In this document: piece by piece, positions 5,594-41,058 of the stretch
How the letters are laid out: every line of letters begins with the position of its first letter
Position numbering within the stretch: position 1 is the first letter of the stretch
DNA from: Streptomyces gossypii
GTDB lineage: Bacteria > Actinomycetota > Actinomycetes > Streptomycetales > Streptomycetaceae
Assembly (NCBI RefSeq): GCF_025165795.1
Contig: NZ_JAJAGO010000006.1
Coordinates: 186,001 to 250,000, forward strand
Length of the DNA: 64,000 nt
Reading direction: 5' to 3'
The notes under the pieces: model-generated
Seen by the model: only the letters and a program-made list of their open reading frames with translations
Database searches by the model: none
What the model was told of the DNA's origin: nothing
Made by a program: the position numbers and the translations under genes

Positions 5594-6355
5594 GTGGCAC
5601 GCCGCCGCCAGACGCTTTCCCAGAACTTCCTGCGCCACCACGCCACCGTGGAGCGCGTCGTACGCTCCGCCCGACTGCGGCCCGACGACCTGGTACTCGA
5701 ACCGGGCGCGGGCGAGGGTGCGCTGACCGGCGCACTGGCCCGCGCCTCCGGCCGGGTCGTCGCGTACGAGATCGATCGCCGGCTCGCCGCCCGGCTGCGC
5801 GAGCGTGTCCGCCCGCACCCGGGAGTGCGCGTGGTCCGGGGCGACTTCACCCGCGTACGGCCCCCCGCCGAGCCCTTCGCGGTGGTCGGCAACATCCCGT
5901 TCGCCCGCACGACCGACATCGTCCGCTGGTGCCTGGCCTCCCCCGGGCTGACCTCGGCGACGCTGCTGACCCAGCTCGAATACGCCCGCAAACGCACCGG
6001 CGGTTACGGGCGCTGGACCCTGCTGACGGTACGCACCTGGCCGGAGCACGAGTGGCGGCTCGTCAGCCGGGTCGGGCGGGAGTGCTTCTCCCCGTCGCCG
6101 CGCACCGACGCCGCGCTGATGCGGCTCGTGCGCCGCCCGCAGCCACTGCTGCCGCCCGGCGAACTGGCCGCGTACCGCGAGCTCGTCGCACTCGGCTTCA
6201 CGGGTGTGGGCGGCTCACTGGCGGCCAGCCTGGCCCGCCGCTACCGGATCCGCCAGGTGCGGAGCGCCTTCCGGCACCAGGAGCTGGACGAAGCCACCCC
6301 GGTGGGTCTGGTCTCCCCGGAACAGTGGCTCCGGCTCTTCCTCGACCTCGCCTAA
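5594..6355 (+). CDS. erm: 23S rRNA (adenine-N6) methyltransferase, Erm family
   Basis: A 253-residue SAM-dependent methyltransferase that would modify A2058 of 23S rRNA and give macrolide-lincosamide-streptogramin B resistance. Family motifs are in order: SQNFL (substrate/N terminus, residues 7-11), LEPGAGEGALT (SAM loop, ~35-45), VVAYEID (~55), VVRGDFTRVRPP (~79), and VVGNIPF, the catalytic N-[IL]-P-[FY] motif (~95). GTG 5594 is chosen because AGAGGA lies about nine bases upstream and SQNFL sits at the usual place. No drug-biosynthesis genes are nearby, so it is probably intrinsic resistance. Confidence 0.88.
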   Translation: MARRRQTLSQNFLRHHATVERVVRSARLRPDDLVLEPGAGEGALTGALARASGRVVAYEIDRRLAARLRERVRPHPGVRVVRGDFTRVRPPAEPFAVVGNIPFARTTDIVRWCLASPGLTSATLLTQLEYARKRTGGYGRWTLLTVRTWPEHEWRLVSRVGRECFSPSPRTDAALMRLVRRPQPLLPPGELAAYRELVALGFTGVGGSLAASLARRYRIRQVRSAFRHQELDEATPVGLVSPEQWLRLFLDLA

Positions 6356-6370: not shown

Positions 6371-6412
6371 CCGCCGCCACGGCGCGAGACGACCGCGCCG
6401 TGGGTCCGGCGG
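6371..6412 (+). terminator. Hairpin downstream of erm
   Basis: CACGGCGCG (6378-6386) pairs perfectly with CGCGCCGTG (6394-6402), with outer CCGCCG/CGGCGG pairing. It follows the erm stop by 22 bases. The rest of 6413-6640 holds no gene I can support. Confidence 0.5.
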
Positions 6413-6640
6413 CACGCCAGGACACCGAACCCACCGCGTATGTCCCAGCGCCGCGGCGCAGTACGCACCCGGGCCCCCGGACCCGTCCGCGCTGCCGACG
6501 GCGGGCACGGAGACCGCCGGACTCCCGCCGTCGCGGCCAGACACCGTAGCGGCGCGAGGAGAACCACCGCTACGGCACGGGGTTCGGGGGCTCGGCACGC
6601 GCAAGCCGTGCCGGGGCCGGTCACAGACCGGAACACCGGG

Positions 6641-9649: not shown

Positions 9650-11281
9650 ATGGAGCAGGCAACGACTCTGGTCAGCACCGTCGACCCGGCATCCGATTCC
9701 GGCCTGGCCAACGCGGCCGCGCACCGCGAGCTGGCGGCGGAGCTGCGGGCCAGGCTGGCCGCCGCGCGGCTCGGGGGCGGCGAGCGGGCCCGCGCCCGGC
9801 ATGCGGCGCGCGGCAAGCTGCTGCCGCGTGAGCGGGTGGACACCCTGCTGGACCAGGGCTCCCCCTTCCTGGAGCTCGCCCCGCTGGCCGCCGGGGGGAT
9901 GTACGGGGACGCCGCGCCGGCGGCCGGGGTGATCGCCGGAATCGGCCGGGTCTCCGGGCGCGAGGTGGTCGTGGTCGCCAACGACGCCACCGTCAAGGGC
10001 GGTACGTACTACCCGATGACGGTCAAGAAGCACCTGCGCGCCCAGGAGGTGGCCCTGGAGAACCGCCTGCCGTGCGTCTATCTGGTGGACTCCGGCGGCG
10101 CCTTCCTGCCGATGCAGGACGAGGTCTTCCCCGACCGCGACCACTTCGGCCGGATCTTCTACAACCAGGCGCGGATGTCGGGCGCGGGCATCCCGCAGAT
10201 CGCCGCCGTGCTCGGCTCCTGCACGGCGGGCGGCGCCTACGTCCCCGCGATGAGCGACGAGGCGGTGATCGTGCGCGGGCAGGGCACGATCTTCCTGGGC
10301 GGTCCGCCGCTGGTGAAGGCGGCGACGGGTGAGGTCGTCACCGCCGAGGAACTGGGCGGCGGCGAGGTCCACTCCCGCGTCTCCGGCGTGACGGACCACC
10401 TGGCGGAGGACGACCCGCATGCGCTGCGCATCGTGCGGCGCATCGTCTCGACCCTGCCCGAGCGGCCCCCGCTGCCCTGGTCGGTGCGCCCCGCCGTGGA
10501 GCCCGCAGCCGATCCGGCCGAGCTGTACGCCGCGGTTCCCGCCGACTCGCGTACGTCCTACGACGTGCGGGAGGTGATCGCCCGTCTGGTGGACGGCTCG
10601 CGTTTCCAGGAGTTCAAGGCGGAGTACGGCACGACCCTGGTCACCGGCTTCGCCCGGATCCAGGGCCACCCCGTGGGCATCGTGGCGAACAACGGCATCC
10701 TGTTCTCCGAATCGGCCCAGAAGGGCGCGCACTTCATCGAGCTGTGCGACCAGCGCGGCATCCCGCTCCTCTTCCTGCAGAACATCTCGGGCTTCATGGT
10801 CGGCCGCGCCTACGAGGCGGGGGGCATCGCCAAGCACGGCGCCAAGATGGTGACGGCCGTGGCCTGCACCAGAGTCCCGAAGCTGACGGTGGTCATAGGC
10901 GGTTCCTACGGCGCGGGGAACTACTCGATGTGCGGGCGGGCCTATGGGCCGCGCTTCCTGTGGATGTGGCCGAACGCCAAGATCTCGGTGATGGGCGGCG
11001 AGCAGGCCGCGTCCGTGCTCTCCACGGTCAAGCGGGACCAGCTGGAGGCACGCGGCGAGGAGTGGAGCCAGCAGGAGGAGGATGCCTTCCGGGCCCCGGT
11101 CCGCGCCCAGTACGAGGAGCAGGGGGACGCGTACTACGCCAGCGCCCGCCTGTGGGACGACGGCGTCATCGATCCGCTGGAGACCCGCACCGTGCTCGGT
11201 CTCGCCCTCACGGCATGCGCCAACGCGCCGCTGCCGCAGCGGGATCCGAGCGTGCCCCACTACGGCGTCTTCCGGATGTGA
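9650..11281 (+). CDS. Acyl-CoA carboxylase beta subunit (methylcrotonyl-CoA type)
   Basis: A 543-residue carboxyltransferase subunit that transfers CO2 from biotin to acyl-CoA. It has the two crotonase-fold halves: [20 protein letters not shown] and [16 protein letters not shown] in the N half, and [29 protein letters not shown] with [11 protein letters not shown] in the C half. This pattern and the neighbour HMG-CoA lyase point to 3-methylcrotonyl-CoA carboxylase of leucine breakdown. ATG 9650 (MEQAT) is favoured over ATG 9572, with AAGGGGG upstream. First gene of a four-gene rightward operon. Confidence 0.92.
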
Positions 11282-18227: not shown

Positions 18228-18243
18228 CAAGGTGTAGACCAAT
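18228..18243. promoter_or_regulatory. DasR-responsive element (dre)-like site
   Basis: CAAGGTGTAGACCAAT matches the known 16-bp palindrome centred on GGTCTAGACC at most core positions. It lies upstream of the leftward hexosaminidase gene, a classic DasR target, and could also affect the rightward small gene. Confidence 0.6.
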
Positions 18244-18264
18244 ACCACCCCTCTTGGACTCATC

Positions 18265-18284
18265 CCTGCCCGATACCGGGCAGG
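18265..18284. promoter_or_regulatory. Perfect hairpin upstream of the small gene
   Basis: CCTGCCCG and CGGGCAGG form an 8-bp perfect stem with a four-base loop, about 40 bases before GTG 18324. It could be a protein site or mRNA structure. Confidence 0.35.
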
Positions 18285-18323
18285 ATTCTTGCGAAACCAT
18301 CCCCGGCAGCCCAGTATCAACGG

Positions 18324-18602
18324 GTGCTCGAAAGCCGGACCCCGGTCCATGACGACCTGATCGACCATCTGGTCCGCACCACCGCGCTGCCCCGTGGCGA
18401 GGCCGCCAGGGTGGTGCTGGACGTGCTGGCCTACTTCGACGAGACGACGGAGGAGTTCGTGCGCCGACGCCACCGGGAGCTGCGCGGCAGGGGGCTGGTG
18501 AACGCGGAGATCTTCGAGCGGATCGCGGCCGAGCTGCCGCACCGCGCGGTGACGCCACCCGGACTCTCCCAGCGTCAGCTGCGCCGCCTCGTCTACGGCT
18601 GA
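18324..18602 (+). CDS. Small conserved helical protein upstream of glmS
   Basis: A 92-residue charged, mostly helical protein (DDLIDHLVRTTALPRGEAARVVLDVLAYFDETTEEFVRRRHRELRGRGLVNAEIFERIAAEL). No membrane segment or cofactor motif. The frame is open far upstream, but codon use and composition change near GTG 18324, which is taken as the start. It reads toward glmS, 54 bases away, so the two may be co-transcribed. Function unknown. Confidence 0.65.
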   Translation: MLESRTPVHDDLIDHLVRTTALPRGEAARVVLDVLAYFDETTEEFVRRRHRELRGRGLVNAEIFERIAAELPHRAVTPPGLSQRQLRRLVYG

Positions 18603-18656
18603 TCACACCCGTCACGGCCGCGAGCACACAGAAACCAACTGCCGGAGGAGATGCGC

Positions 18657-20471
18657 ATGTGCGGGATCGTCGGATACATCGGCAAACGGGATGTCGCCCC
18701 GCTGCTACTGGAGGGGCTCCAGCGACTGGAGTACCGGGGGTACGACAGCGCGGGCATCGCCATCCAGAGCAAGAGCTCCGGGCTCAAGACCGCCAAGGCC
18801 AAGGGCCGGGTGCGTGAGCTGGAATCCCGTATCCCCAAGCGCTTCGCGGGCACCTGCGGCATCGCGCACACCCGCTGGGCCACCCACGGCGCTCCCAACG
18901 ACGTCAACGCGCACCCCCACCTCGACCCGGCCGAGAAGGTCGCGGTCGTGCACAACGGCATCATCGACAACGCCGACGATCTGCGCGCCAAGCTCGGCGC
19001 AGAGGGCATCACCCTCGTCTCCGACACCGACACCGAGGTACTCGCCCACCTGATCGGCCGGGCGCAGGAGGAGACCCTCGAAGCCCGGGTGCGTGAGGCA
19101 CTGCGCCACATCGAGGGCACCTACGGCATCGCCGTACTGCACGCGGACTTCCCGGACCGGATCGTCGTCGCCCGCAACGGCTCCCCGGTCGTGCTGGGCA
19201 TCGGGGAGCACGAGATGTTCGTCGCCTCCGACGTGGCGGCCCTCGTCTCGCACACCCGCCAGGTCGTCACCCTGAACGACGGCGAGATGGCGACGATCAA
19301 GGCCGACGACTACCGCACCTACACGACCGAGGGCTCCCGCACCTCGACTTCGCCGGAGACGGTCGAGTGGGCAGCCGAGTCGTATGACATGGGCGGCCAC
19401 GACACCTACATGCACAAGGAGATCGCGGAGCAGGCCGACGCCGTGGACCGGGTGCTGCGCGGGCGGATCGACGACCGCTTCGCCACCGTCCACCTGGGCG
19501 GGCTCAATCTGGACGCCCGCGAGGCGCGCGGGGTCCGCCGGGTGAAGATCCTCGGCTGCGGCTCCGCCTACCACGCGGGCATGATCGGCGCACAGCTGAT
19601 CGAGGAGCTGGCCCGCATCCCGGCCGACGCCGAGCCCGCGAGCGAGTTCCGCTACCGCAACGCCGTGGTCGACCCGGACACCCTCTACATCGCCGTCAGC
19701 CAGTCGGGGGAGACCTACGACACCCTGGCGGCCGTCCAGGAGCTCAAGCGCAAGGGCGCGCGCGTCCTGGGTGTGGTGAACGTCGTCGGCTCCGCGATCG
19801 CGCGGGAGACCGACGGGGGTGTGTATGTGCACGCCGGGCCCGAGGTCTGCGTCGTCTCCACCAAGTGCTTCACCAACACGGCGGTCGCCTTCGCGCTGCT
19901 CGCCCTCCATCTGGGCCGGATTCGCGATCTGTCGGTCGCGGACGGCAAGCGGATCATCGAGGGCCTGCGCAAGCTCCCCGAGCAGATCTCCGGGATTCTC
20001 CAGGACGAGGCGGCCATCGAGAAGCTGGCGGCCGACTACGCGCAGGCCAAGAGCATGATGTTCGTGGGCCGGGTCCGGGGCTACCCGGTGGCGCGGGAGG
20101 CGTCACTGAAGCTCAAGGAGGTCTCCTACATCCACGCCGAGGCCTACCCGGCCTCCGAGCTGAAGCACGGCCCGCTGGCGCTGATCGAGCCCGCGGTGCC
20201 GACCGTGGCGATCATCCCGGACGACGAACTGCTGGACAAGAACCGCGCCACGCTGGAGGAGATCAAGGCCCGCAGCGGCACCATCCTCGCCGTCGCACAC
20301 AGCGAGCAGGAGAAGGCGGACCACACGATCGTGGTGCCCCGGAACGAGCCGGAGCTCGACCCGATCCTGATGGGCATCCCCCTGCAACTGCTGGCCTACC
20401 ACACGGCCCTGGCCCTCGACCGCGACATCGACAAGCCCCGCAACCTGGCCAAGTCCGTCACCGTCGAATAG
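18657..20471 (+). CDS. glmS: Glutamine-fructose-6-phosphate aminotransferase
   Basis: A 604-residue enzyme making glucosamine-6-phosphate from fructose-6-P and glutamine, the entry to cell-wall amino sugars. The N-terminal glutaminase has the nucleophile Cys directly after Met (MCGIVGYIG), which fixes the start at ATG 18657 (six bases after GGAGGAG) rather than ATG 18651. HTRWATHGAPN and HNGIIDN follow; two SIS domains hold GCGSAYHAG, SQSGETYDT, STKCFTNT and ASELKHGPLALIE; the C terminus ends NLAKSVTVE as in the family. Neighbouring hexosaminidase suggests an amino-sugar cluster. Confidence 0.96.
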   Translation: MCGIVGYIGKRDVAPLLLEGLQRLEYRGYDSAGIAIQSKSSGLKTAKAKGRVRELESRIPKRFAGTCGIAHTRWATHGAPNDVNAHPHLDPAEKVAVVHNGIIDNADDLRAKLGAEGITLVSDTDTEVLAHLIGRAQEETLEARVREALRHIEGTYGIAVLHADFPDRIVVARNGSPVVLGIGEHEMFVASDVAALVSHTRQVVTLNDGEMATIKADDYRTYTTEGSRTSTSPETVEWAAESYDMGGHDTYMHKEIAEQADAVDRVLRGRIDDRFATVHLGGLNLDAREARGVRRVKILGCGSAYHAGMIGAQLIEELARIPADAEPASEFRYRNAVVDPDTLYIAVSQSGETYDTLAAVQELKRKGARVLGVVNVVGSAIARETDGGVYVHAGPEVCVVSTKCFTNTAVAFALLALHLGRIRDLSVADGKRIIEGLRKLPEQISGILQDEAAIEKLAADYAQAKSMMFVGRVRGYPVAREASLKLKEVSYIHAEAYPASELKHGPLALIEPAVPTVAIIPDDELLDKNRATLEEIKARSGTILAVAHSEQEKADHTIVVPRNEPELDPILMGIPLQLLAYHTALALDRDIDKPRNLAKSVTVE

Positions 20472-21371: not shown

Positions 21372-22191
21372 GGCTATCTCGGCGAAGGGAGTCCTCTTGC
21401 GGAGGGACGATGGTTGTCTTTTCGGTAAGACCGGCGATCTTGATGACGACCGGGAAGCATCTTTCCCTATCCTTTACCCCAAGGGTACGGCGACACTCCC
21501 CATTGCTCACAGCAGAGGAAGCGGCCGCCCGCTCTGCACGCGCTGACCCCGGAGCATGCCGGAGCGAAGCGCTTTGCGCAACGCCGGGCTACGCCCCTTA
21601 CATCGGCCTGCATCCCGCCCCAGCCCTCACTTCCGCACCCCTGCGACCCTCCGGCGGACACGTACCGCGATCGGGTCGTCACCCGAACAGGGGTCCCGCT
21701 GCGGGCGCGCCGCAGAAGAGCCTCGTCAGCCCAGGATTCCGGGACACATGTCATTCAGCCGCCCCAGCCACCCTGCGATCGCCCGAAAGCAGCCCCCTCA
21801 GGAGCACCAGAGGGTGCACGGGGGGCGCACGCCGGTGCACAAGCGCGCCACGCCACTGATCCCCCGCTTTTTTCGGCCAACTTCCGCACGTGGCACGCAC
21901 CTTGGGGCCAGCTACCCTCAACACCGCTGCCACCTGGGAAGAAAGGAGCACTCGGGCGCCACGCACCCTACGGTGGCAGGGCACGAGGCGGATGCGCACT
22001 ACCCAACACGCCCGCTGAGTGGAACGCTTCGTGATCGAATGCTTTACGCCAAGTTGCCTTGTCGACATAACGTCGGGTGCTGAACTTGTCACTCCGACCT
22101 CATCCGACACAGTAGATTCGATCTTGGCTATCGCCGCGGGGGAGAAGTGCAGGACCGAGAGGACGCGACGATTGAGGGGGGCTTAGTTCCA
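21372..22191. other. Long regulatory region upstream of adpA
   Basis: About 820 bases without a supportable gene. Long upstream regions with several activator/repressor sites are typical of adpA (established for S. griseus and S. coelicolor). A candidate promoter segment lies near 22087-22120 (TTGTCA, then an AT-richer CAGTAGATTCGATC), but the -35/-10 spacing is not ideal. An AT-rich patch is also present around 21410-21480, next to the stress gene promoter. Confidence 0.5.
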
Positions 22192-23204
22192 ATGAGCCAG
22201 GACTCCACGAACGGTCCGGCGCCGACCGCCCGCAAACTGGCCGCACGCCGTCGGCGCGAGATCGTCGCCGTGCTGCTGTCCAGCCGCCACCGCCGGCCGC
22301 CCTGGACGGGCTGCGCCGCGCGCACGAGGAGGGCGCGCGGATCATCGGGCTGTGCACCGGCTCCTTCGTCCTGGCCGCGGCTGGGCTGCTGGACGGCCGC
22401 CCGGCCACCACACACTGGATGTACGCGCCGACGCTTGCCAAGCGCTATCCCGCCGTGCACGTGGATCCACGGGAGCTGTTCGTCGACGACGGCGACATTC
22501 TGACCTCCGCCGGCACCGCCGCGGGCATAGACCTGTGCCTGCACGTGGTGCGGACGGACCACGGCGCCGACGCGGCCGGGGCGCTCGCCCGGCGACTCGT
22601 CGTACCGCCGCGGCGCAACAACGGCGTCGACACCGGGCACCCCCGTCACCTGGACCGCTCCTTACCAGAGGAGATCGGCGCGGACCCGCTGGCTGAAGTC
22701 GTCGCCTGGGCGCTCGAACACCTCCACGAACAGTTCGACGTGGAGACCCTGGCCGCCCGCGCGTACATGAGCCGCCGCACCTTCGACCGGCGCTTCCGCT
22801 CACTGACCGGCAGCGCCCCCCTGCAATGGCTGATCACCCAGCGGGTACTGCAGGCGCAACGGCTGCTCGAGACGTCCGACTACTCCGTGGACGAGGTGGC
22901 GAGCCGCTGCGGCTTCCGTTCGCCGGTCGCCCTGCGCGGCCACTTCCGCCGCCAACTGGGGGCCTCACCGGCCGCCTACCGGGCGGCCTACCGGGCACGA
23001 CGGCCGGAAGGCGAGGGGAACGAAGCGCGCATTCCGGAGGCGCGCAAGGAGGCGGCCGCTGCGGCGGCAGCGGCCGAAAAGGAGTACGAGGGAGCCGTGC
23101 CGACCGGCGGCAACGGCCGCCCCGAGCCAGGCAAGCCGGAGTCGGACGCCTACGCACCGAAACTGCCGAGGCAGCGTGGCCGCAGCTGGGGCGTTTCCCC
23201 GTAG
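22192..23204 (+). pseudogene. adpA: adpA with internal deletion and frameshift
   Basis: AdpA is the central AraC/GlxA-type activator of streptomycete development. The first frame from ATG 22192 reads the conserved start (MSQDST, ARKLAARRRREIVAVLL) and then leaves the family at about 22272. The family sequence resumes in a different frame (PPPPAALDGLRRAHEEGARIIGLCTGSFVLAAAGLLDGRPATTHWMYAP), so roughly 70 residues of the DJ-1/PfpI-like domain are missing and the frame is shifted. The C-terminal HTH half is intact to 23204 ([44 protein letters not shown]). The hallmark TTA codon is present at 22662-22664. An internal ATG at 22419 could give a 261-aa DNA-binding fragment. An assembly deletion is a real alternative. 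Confidence 0.85.
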
Positions 23205-23311: not shown

Positions 23312-23920
23312 ATGAACAATCGAATGGTGTGGATCGACTGTGAGATGACCGGGCTCTCGCTGATCGAGGATGCGATCGTCGAGGTGGCCGCCCTGGTCAC
23401 CGACTCGGAGCTGAACATCCTCGGCGAGGGCGTGGACATCGTGATCCGCCCGCCGGAGGCGTCGCTGGACTCGATGCCCGAGGTGGTGCGCGCCATGCAC
23501 ACCGCCTCCGGACTGCTCGACGAGCTGGACCAGGGCACCACCCTGGCGGACGCCGAGGCCCAAGTCCTCGCCTACGTACGGGAGCACGCCAAGGAGCCCG
23601 GCAAGGCGCCGCTGTGCGGGAACTCCGTCGGCACCGACCGCGGCTTCCTGGCCCGTGACATGCCCGCGCTGGAGCAGCATCTGCACTACCGCATCGTGGA
23701 CGTGTCCTCGGTGAAGGAGCTGGCCCGCCGCTGGTATCCGCGGGCCTACTTCAACAGCCCGGACAAGCAGGGCAACCATCGCGCGCTGGCCGACATCCGC
23801 GAATCCATCGCCGAGCTGCGCTACTACCGCGAGGCGATTTTCGTGCCGCATCCCGGCCCGGACTCGGACACCGCGAAGGAGATCGCGGCCCGCTACGCCC
23901 TGCCGCCCTCCCCCGCGTAA
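23312..23920 (+). CDS. orn: Oligoribonuclease
   Basis: A 202-residue DEDDh 3'-5' exoribonuclease that degrades 2-5 nt RNAs and the c-di-GMP product pGpG in the cytosol. Exo [21 protein letters not shown]; Exo [19 protein letters not shown]; Exo [21 protein letters not shown]. The adpA-orn-tRNA-His order is the usual streptomycete arrangement (recalled synteny), supporting the identification of the broken adpA. ATG 23312 is used; the frame extends upstream only as a shadow of adpA. Confidence 0.95.
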
Positions 23921-23989: not shown

Positions 23990-24062
23990 GTGGATGTAGC
24001 TCAGTTGGTAGAGCACCTGGTTGTGGTCCAGGATGTCGCGGGTTCAAGTCCCGTCATTCACC
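23990..24062 (+). tRNA. tRNA-His (anticodon GTG)
   Basis: Full cloverleaf: acceptor GTGGATG/CATTCAC, D arm TAGCTCAGTTGGTAGAGCA, anticodon loop TTGTGGT with GTG at 24023-24025, T arm GGGTTCAAGTCCC. The extra 5' G (23989) that histidine tRNAs pair with C73 (24062) is present. It is the integration target of the adjacent prophage. Confidence 0.95.
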
Positions 24063-24068
24063 CTAAAC
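24028..24068. other. Probable attL (left prophage junction)
   Basis: Tyrosine-recombinase phages normally use the 3' half of a tRNA as attachment core, and the integrase gene begins 110 bases downstream. The exact core cannot be fixed because attR is outside the window. Confidence 0.5.
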
Positions 24069-40953: not shown

Positions 40954-41026
40954 GCCCGGATAGCCCAGCAGGCAGAGGCACCGTCCTAAAAACGGCGCAG
41001 CGCGGGTTCGAACCCCGCTCCGGGCA
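40954..41026 (+). tRNA. Phage-encoded tRNA, apparent anticodon UAA
   Basis: 73 nt with perfect 7-bp acceptor (GCCCGGA/TCCGGGC), perfect 5-bp T stem and TTCGAAC loop, discriminator A, five-base variable loop, no encoded CCA. The anticodon stem has four good pairs (CCGT/ACGG) and a 7-base loop CCTAAAA, giving TAA at 34-36. Position 33 is C instead of the near-universal U, the D stem is irregular, and a leucine tRNA should have a long variable arm, so identity is uncertain. Confidence 0.75.
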
Positions 41027-41058
41027 CGCCGACCACCCACCGTCAGGAGAACCCCGCG

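Follow-up and report, generated by a model that had tools for sequence, protein, structure and literature searches.

The question raised by this locus is whether a Streptomyces has lost AdpA, a master regulator of development, and, if so, whether the loss affects the strain itself or just its assembled genome. The window, a stretch of 64,000 nucleotides (C46:186001-250000, forward strand), belongs to a 7.52-Mb genome in 49 contigs with a completeness of 99.99% and a contamination of 0.22%. The first-pass annotation had recognised in it a broken copy of adpA (also named bldH). Judged by its neighbourhood and by its best structural match, the broken gene is the AdpA orthologue: it adjoins orn, and AdpA (3w6v) is the solved structure that it matches best, which bears out the assignment. 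The gene starts with the ATG at 22192, the family sequence terminates with a stop at 23202-23204, and orn and a tRNA-His gene sit downstream. The order adpA-orn is also found in the relatives G112 and G322, and in S. coelicolor ornA (SCO2793) is reported to lie immediately 3' to adpA (PMC2936110). The features of the locus are as follows.

21924-22191, forward strand: upstream region of adpA, conserved in relatives (80% identity to G112 across 21924-22284)
22192-22278, forward strand: residual adpA N-terminus of 29 codons (MSQDSTNGPAPTARKLAARRRREIVAVLL), matching the N-termini of the relative loci L038-L041
22279-22280, forward strand: deletion junction, lacking 214 bp that all 59 intact relatives possess
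22280-23204, forward strand: residual C-terminal part of adpA in a shifted frame, 97% identical to L039 at the amino-acid level (230 columns)
22192-22503, forward strand: present product of the original start, 103 aa (29 AdpA and 74 out-of-frame residues; stop at 22501-22503)
22419-23204, forward strand: open frame of 261 aa from the first in-frame ATG/GTG/TTG, an ATG that encodes an internal Met of AdpA
22662-22664, forward strand: TTA codon of adpA, situated between the two domains (a common but not universal feature of the family), codon 229 in L038-L041
23312-23920, forward strand: intact orn (oligoribonuclease), matching NF003765 with 264.9 bits against a cut-off of 106 (for 23324-23917) and its relatives with 81-83%

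The AdpA reading from ATG 22192 holds for 29 codons, and the family sequence resumes at CAG 22281 in another frame. We compared the gene with 59 intact adpA genes, every sequence distinct, of which genomes of the same genus contributed 37 (L009-L045) and named records 22 (L067 on); of 70 loci tried, the other 11 were left out as having no adpA within the stretch examined. The closest relatives (G322, G392, G112, and G162) share 86-87% DNA identity with the window gene and encode intact proteins of 471-494 aa with the TTA at codon 229. Against all 59 genes the missing stretch measures exactly 214 bp. Because 214 equals 3 × 71 + 1, one deletion accounts for the frameshift as well as for the ∼71 lost residues, and a single clean deletion underlies the adpA break in the deposited sequence. 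The gene is thus not a single uninterrupted frame but is broken at 22279|22280. Earlier, the lesion had been described as a deletion plus a frameshift; both effects are present, and the one 214-bp event yields both. The accompanying estimate of about 70 residues, or 210-220 bases, was accurate, whereas the N-terminal match to AdpA, placed “to about 22272,” is present but ends at 22278/22279. Alignment with AdpA from close relatives, which had been suggested as a check, finds the segment absent from the window alone.

As a possible cause, the first-pass annotation had named the collapse of a GC-rich repeat in assembly. This explanation is not supported: relatives carry unique coding sequence in place of the gap, and in L040 we find no direct repeat of at least 14 bp across the deletion region. 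L040 is the only repeat control, since the L038 stretch, where the gene lies on the reverse strand, missed this region. In the relatives, the sequences corresponding to the two deletion ends have no homology (0 bp) in 50 of the 59 genes and 1 bp of it in the other nine. With 0-1 bp of end homology and no repeat spanning the missing segment in L040, repeat collapse was rejected as the cause. Given the lack of end homology, end-joining, or a copying error that requires no repeat, would be the expected origin of the deletion.

We surveyed 392 Streptomyces genomes, the genome of the window included, for the gene and for the lost segment. The gene is matched at E ≤ 1e-100 in 388 of them, and the 72-residue segment at E ≤ 1e-37 in 387, a count that accepts a segment match anywhere in the genome (the best matches listed lie in open frames of 297-605 aa without stops). 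The exceptions for the segment are the window genome and four fragmented assemblies of 810-1770 contigs (G074, G097, G136, and G376), in which a query made of the gene minus its first ∼80 codons finds matches of at most 73% identity only. The window genome is therefore the sole one among the 388 to have the gene and lack the segment. A search for a second copy of the segment in the host genome returned only paralogue-level matches (best E 7.9e-10). A published count reports AdpA in 2,752 of 3,033 sequenced strains (PMC9239190). Three genomes (G073, G146, and G214) hold two adpA matches each at E ≤ 1e-100, possibly reflecting a duplication of adpA or a duplicated assembly. The TTA codon lies at codons 223-229 in 35 of the 37 same-genus relatives (L009-L045); L031 carries it at codon 135 instead, and L027 has none, so that these two have an intact adpA without TTA at the classical site.

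What remains of the gene downstream of the junction (22280-23204) comprises the last half of the DJ-1/PfpI domain, a linker, the AraC-type HTH domain, and a variable tail. In the intact relative L040 the Pfam DJ-1_PfpI profile is covered from position 30 to 164 of 165; in the window only positions 82-164 of 165 are matched, in the shifted frame and thus out of frame with the start. In the window adpA the N-terminal ThiJ/PfpI/DJ-1 dimerization domain is accordingly incomplete. Among the residues lost is the cysteine of the motif RYRLLVC, at position 62 as counted in MSHDST-type sequences. The AraC domain is whole (positions 1-79 of 80 in the HTH_18 profile), the DNA-binding half matches 3w6v with an E-value of 4.5e-76 over 130 residues, and the TTA codon is in place, in line with the earlier statement that both are intact. 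The C-terminal half of the protein is 96-97% identical to L038-L041 and ∼95% identical to AdpA from S. sioyaensis, S. noursei, and S. piniterrae.

Since 214 is not a multiple of three, translation from the original start would yield a mostly out-of-frame product of 103 aa, which has no Pfam match, and the DNA-binding half would be left without a recognisable start signal. We consider it probable that the 214-bp deletion, arisen in nature or in culture, has made adpA a null allele and that the strain is bald. Such a strain would be predicted to form neither aerial hyphae nor spores and to have a reduced secondary metabolism, and we infer this phenotype here. The expectation, voiced already in the first-pass annotation, agrees with a report that describes adpA mutants as bald and sporeless and that also notes exceptions: an S. 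venezuelae adpA mutant differentiated on GYM medium, and AdpA from S. xiamenensis is reported not to promote morphogenesis (PMC8653842). The host genome contains three chaplin-domain loci (PF03777) and a class II tRNA-Leu(UAA), which suggests that, among the features examined, nothing else points to a lineage that gave up aerial growth.

The frame that opens at ATG 22419, whose predicted size of 261 aa is confirmed by translation to 23204, could in principle soften this outcome. If this C-terminal fragment were expressed and acted as a short AdpA devoid of dimerization, the strain might still differentiate. The frame is open and conserved and retains the whole AraC domain together with the TTA codon, and a solved chain of the AdpA DNA-binding domain exists (3w6v, called truncated AdpA in PMC9239190). 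The putative start, however, corresponds to a Met within the ancestral protein, and the 20 bases before it contain no SD-like 5-mer (4/5 to GGAGG); such 5-mers start at −19, −16, and −15 relative to ATG 22192. Ribosomes coming from the normal start would pass ATG 22419 in another frame. In addition, the fragment is missing a large part of the DJ-1 domain together with the Cys-62 site, and the substitution C62S alone is reported to have abolished sporulation in S. coelicolor (PMC9239190). We hence regard a functional fragment as very improbable. A bolder version, in which the lineage tolerates or even gains from losing the dimerization half, would have the 261-aa fragment made from an unrecognised start as a free DNA-binding domain, its target binding uncoupled from dimerization and from redox sensing by Cys-62; we rate this as a long shot.

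The coding sequence also bears on the age of the lesion. Over the C-terminal 230 codons, the branch leading to the window has a dS of 0.37-0.41, a dN of 0.014-0.018, and an omega of 0.038-0.049, compared with an omega of 0.004-0.028 on the sister branches L038-L041. Pairwise omega is 0.029-0.037 between the window and its four closest relatives (non-zero values among these four are 0.034-0.043), and the median over all other sequences is 0.062 for pairs with the window and 0.028 for pairs without it. The window gene carries three changes at columns where the other 59 sequences show no variation (each of these has at most one such change) and five changes at positions where six compared relatives agree. 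Omega and the unique changes hint at a short spell of relaxed selection. As proof of a real lesion this signal was rejected as too weak, the window branch being about twice as long as its sisters and the pairwise omega to the closest four relatives not being raised. An old pseudogene was rejected as well: neutral evolution would have left ∼195 non-synonymous changes (dS of 0.39 times 500 sites) versus the ∼8 implied by a dN of ∼0.016. Any unconstrained phase occupies at most about 4% of the window branch. Strong purifying selection on the C-terminal part (omega ∼0.04) thus points to a very recent break or an error of assembly, although a working fragment would fit the constraint as well.

An assembly or consensus error, by which 214 bp were lost in silico from an adpA that is intact in the living strain, is unlikely in our estimate but carries some weight. 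The absence of decay in the C-terminal half (branch omega ∼0.04) is what such an error would leave behind, and adpA is near-universal across the genus sample. Moreover, the same assembly holds a redundant contig overlap of 92.8 kb, in whose two versions a tandem repeat differs by 126 bp and a second site by 27 bp. Against an error, the relative L040 has no repeat to collapse, the deletion ends share 0-1 bp, and the adpA locus lies 208 kb inside a 463-kb contig, away from the contig ends. The overlap itself aligns over 19,915 + 53,001 bases ahead of the tandem array (72,916 in all) with 0 mismatches, and the three changes at columns invariant in the 59 other genes speak weakly against an error. 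The 64-kb window contains no N bases. No stop interrupts the called extent of orn or of the neighbouring genes compared with relatives (3.2-20.5 kb); those seen in the aligned stretches precede called starts (4320 and 7579) or belong to a shadow frame (10356-10877). One G112 frame spans two window frames at ∼18230-20468, namely a small gene at 18324-18602 followed by a gene at 18651-20471, which we take to be glmS-like. We infer that the deletion is probably present in the strain's own DNA.

The contig overlap deserves a description of its own. It pairs C4:1-92762 with C7:83086-176000, and over the parts compared the sequences agree fully, apart from 126 bp in an array of ∼126-bp tandem units and 27 bp near C4:79.6 kb. 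Either the assembly left an overlap unmerged or the duplication is real.

The first-pass annotation had also placed adpA beside a prophage, and we find one integrated in the 3' end of the tRNA-His gene, 1.8 kb from the deletion and separated from it by the intact orn.

23990-24063, forward strand: tRNA-His, whose 3' end plus the next base (24043-24064) forms the 22-bp left attachment core
24043-64000 and beyond the window, forward strand: prophage of ∼54.6 kb in all, with an identical 22-bp core at C46:264627-264648

Eight of 10 proteins tested from 24172 on have PHROG matches, and the genes of the element match an integrase, an exonuclease VIII-like protein, a RusA resolvase, a terminase, a portal protein, a head protease, and a major head protein. 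Matches to G112, largely in the same order, restart ∼0.2 kb past the right core; synteny is imperfect in that the 1.2 kb beside tRNA-His in G112 match C46:120848-122040 instead. The prophage need not be involved in the lesion, and proximity is all that shows. The prophage encodes a tRNA with a UAA anticodon, which reads the TTA codon found in adpA and other bldA-dependent genes; together with the integration only 1.8 kb downstream of the break, this could be read as a sign that the prophage produced the deletion or makes up for the lost function. We give that reading almost no credence: the attachment cores attL and attR in tRNA-His are exact over their 22 bp, orn is undamaged between the core and adpA, the host has a class II tRNA-Leu(UAA) of its own, and the missing segment has only paralogue-level matches elsewhere in the genome.

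The prophage tRNA-Leu itself (40954-41027, forward strand, 74 nt) lacks the long variable arm typical of leucine tRNAs, has in its predicted fold a C in place of the U before the anticodon, and scores 42 bits, the lowest of 60 tRNA matches. We had considered whether the host had lost bldA and relied on the prophage tRNA as its sole UAA reader, because this tRNA had no similar copy and an anticodon-loop pattern found nothing. This idea is ruled out by the host class II tRNA-Leu(UAA), 85 nt in length, located on C4 with an identical one on C7 within the overlap (Rfam tRNA search and ARAGORN); the pattern did not fit its sequence.

A null adpA in this genome, the reading that we favour, would not be unprecedented, as a strain with nonfunctional adpA has already been reported in S. 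asterosporus. Zhang et al. (2019, J Biotechnol 292:23-31) are said to have described S. asterosporus DSM 41452 as a bald strain with nonfunctional adpA. Complementation restored sporulation and nucleocidin production in this strain, according to the reports in PMC8945431 and PMC8694150. At the level of its sequence, the window genome is likewise a Streptomyces with its own adpA broken, here by a disrupted frame with paralogue-level matches as the only other candidates; in S. asterosporus DSM 41452 both the baldness and the rescue by adpA are reported, whereas for our strain the baldness is a prediction. S. calvus ATCC 13382, described as a bald bldA mutant with a silent metabolite cluster (PMC8945431, PMC8694150), is a second deposited strain hit in the bldA-adpA developmental branch; there the tRNA is mutated, whereas the window genome retains a class II tRNA-Leu(UAA) and has its target adpA broken. 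Constructed nulls in S. venezuelae (ΔadpA, PMC8653842) and S. lincolnensis (PMC6819324) share the loss of AdpA but are engineered, with the phenotype shown and, in S. venezuelae, also complemented.

Should sequencing reads confirm the deletion, the strain would provide a defined adpA null, natural or culture-derived, in a species-representative genome. It would then be expected to be bald and to harbour silent metabolite clusters, which a functional adpA might awaken as reported for S. asterosporus, and its recorded phenotype and chemistry may misrepresent its species. Knowledge of AdpA itself would be unchanged.

Elsewhere in the window, within a stretch that has no alignment above 150 bits to G112 or G322, a gene for a 23S rRNA methyltransferase of the ErmE/H/O/R group (5594-6355, forward strand; NF000337, 357 bits with a cut-off of 320) adjoins a tRNA-Ala at 6373-6455.
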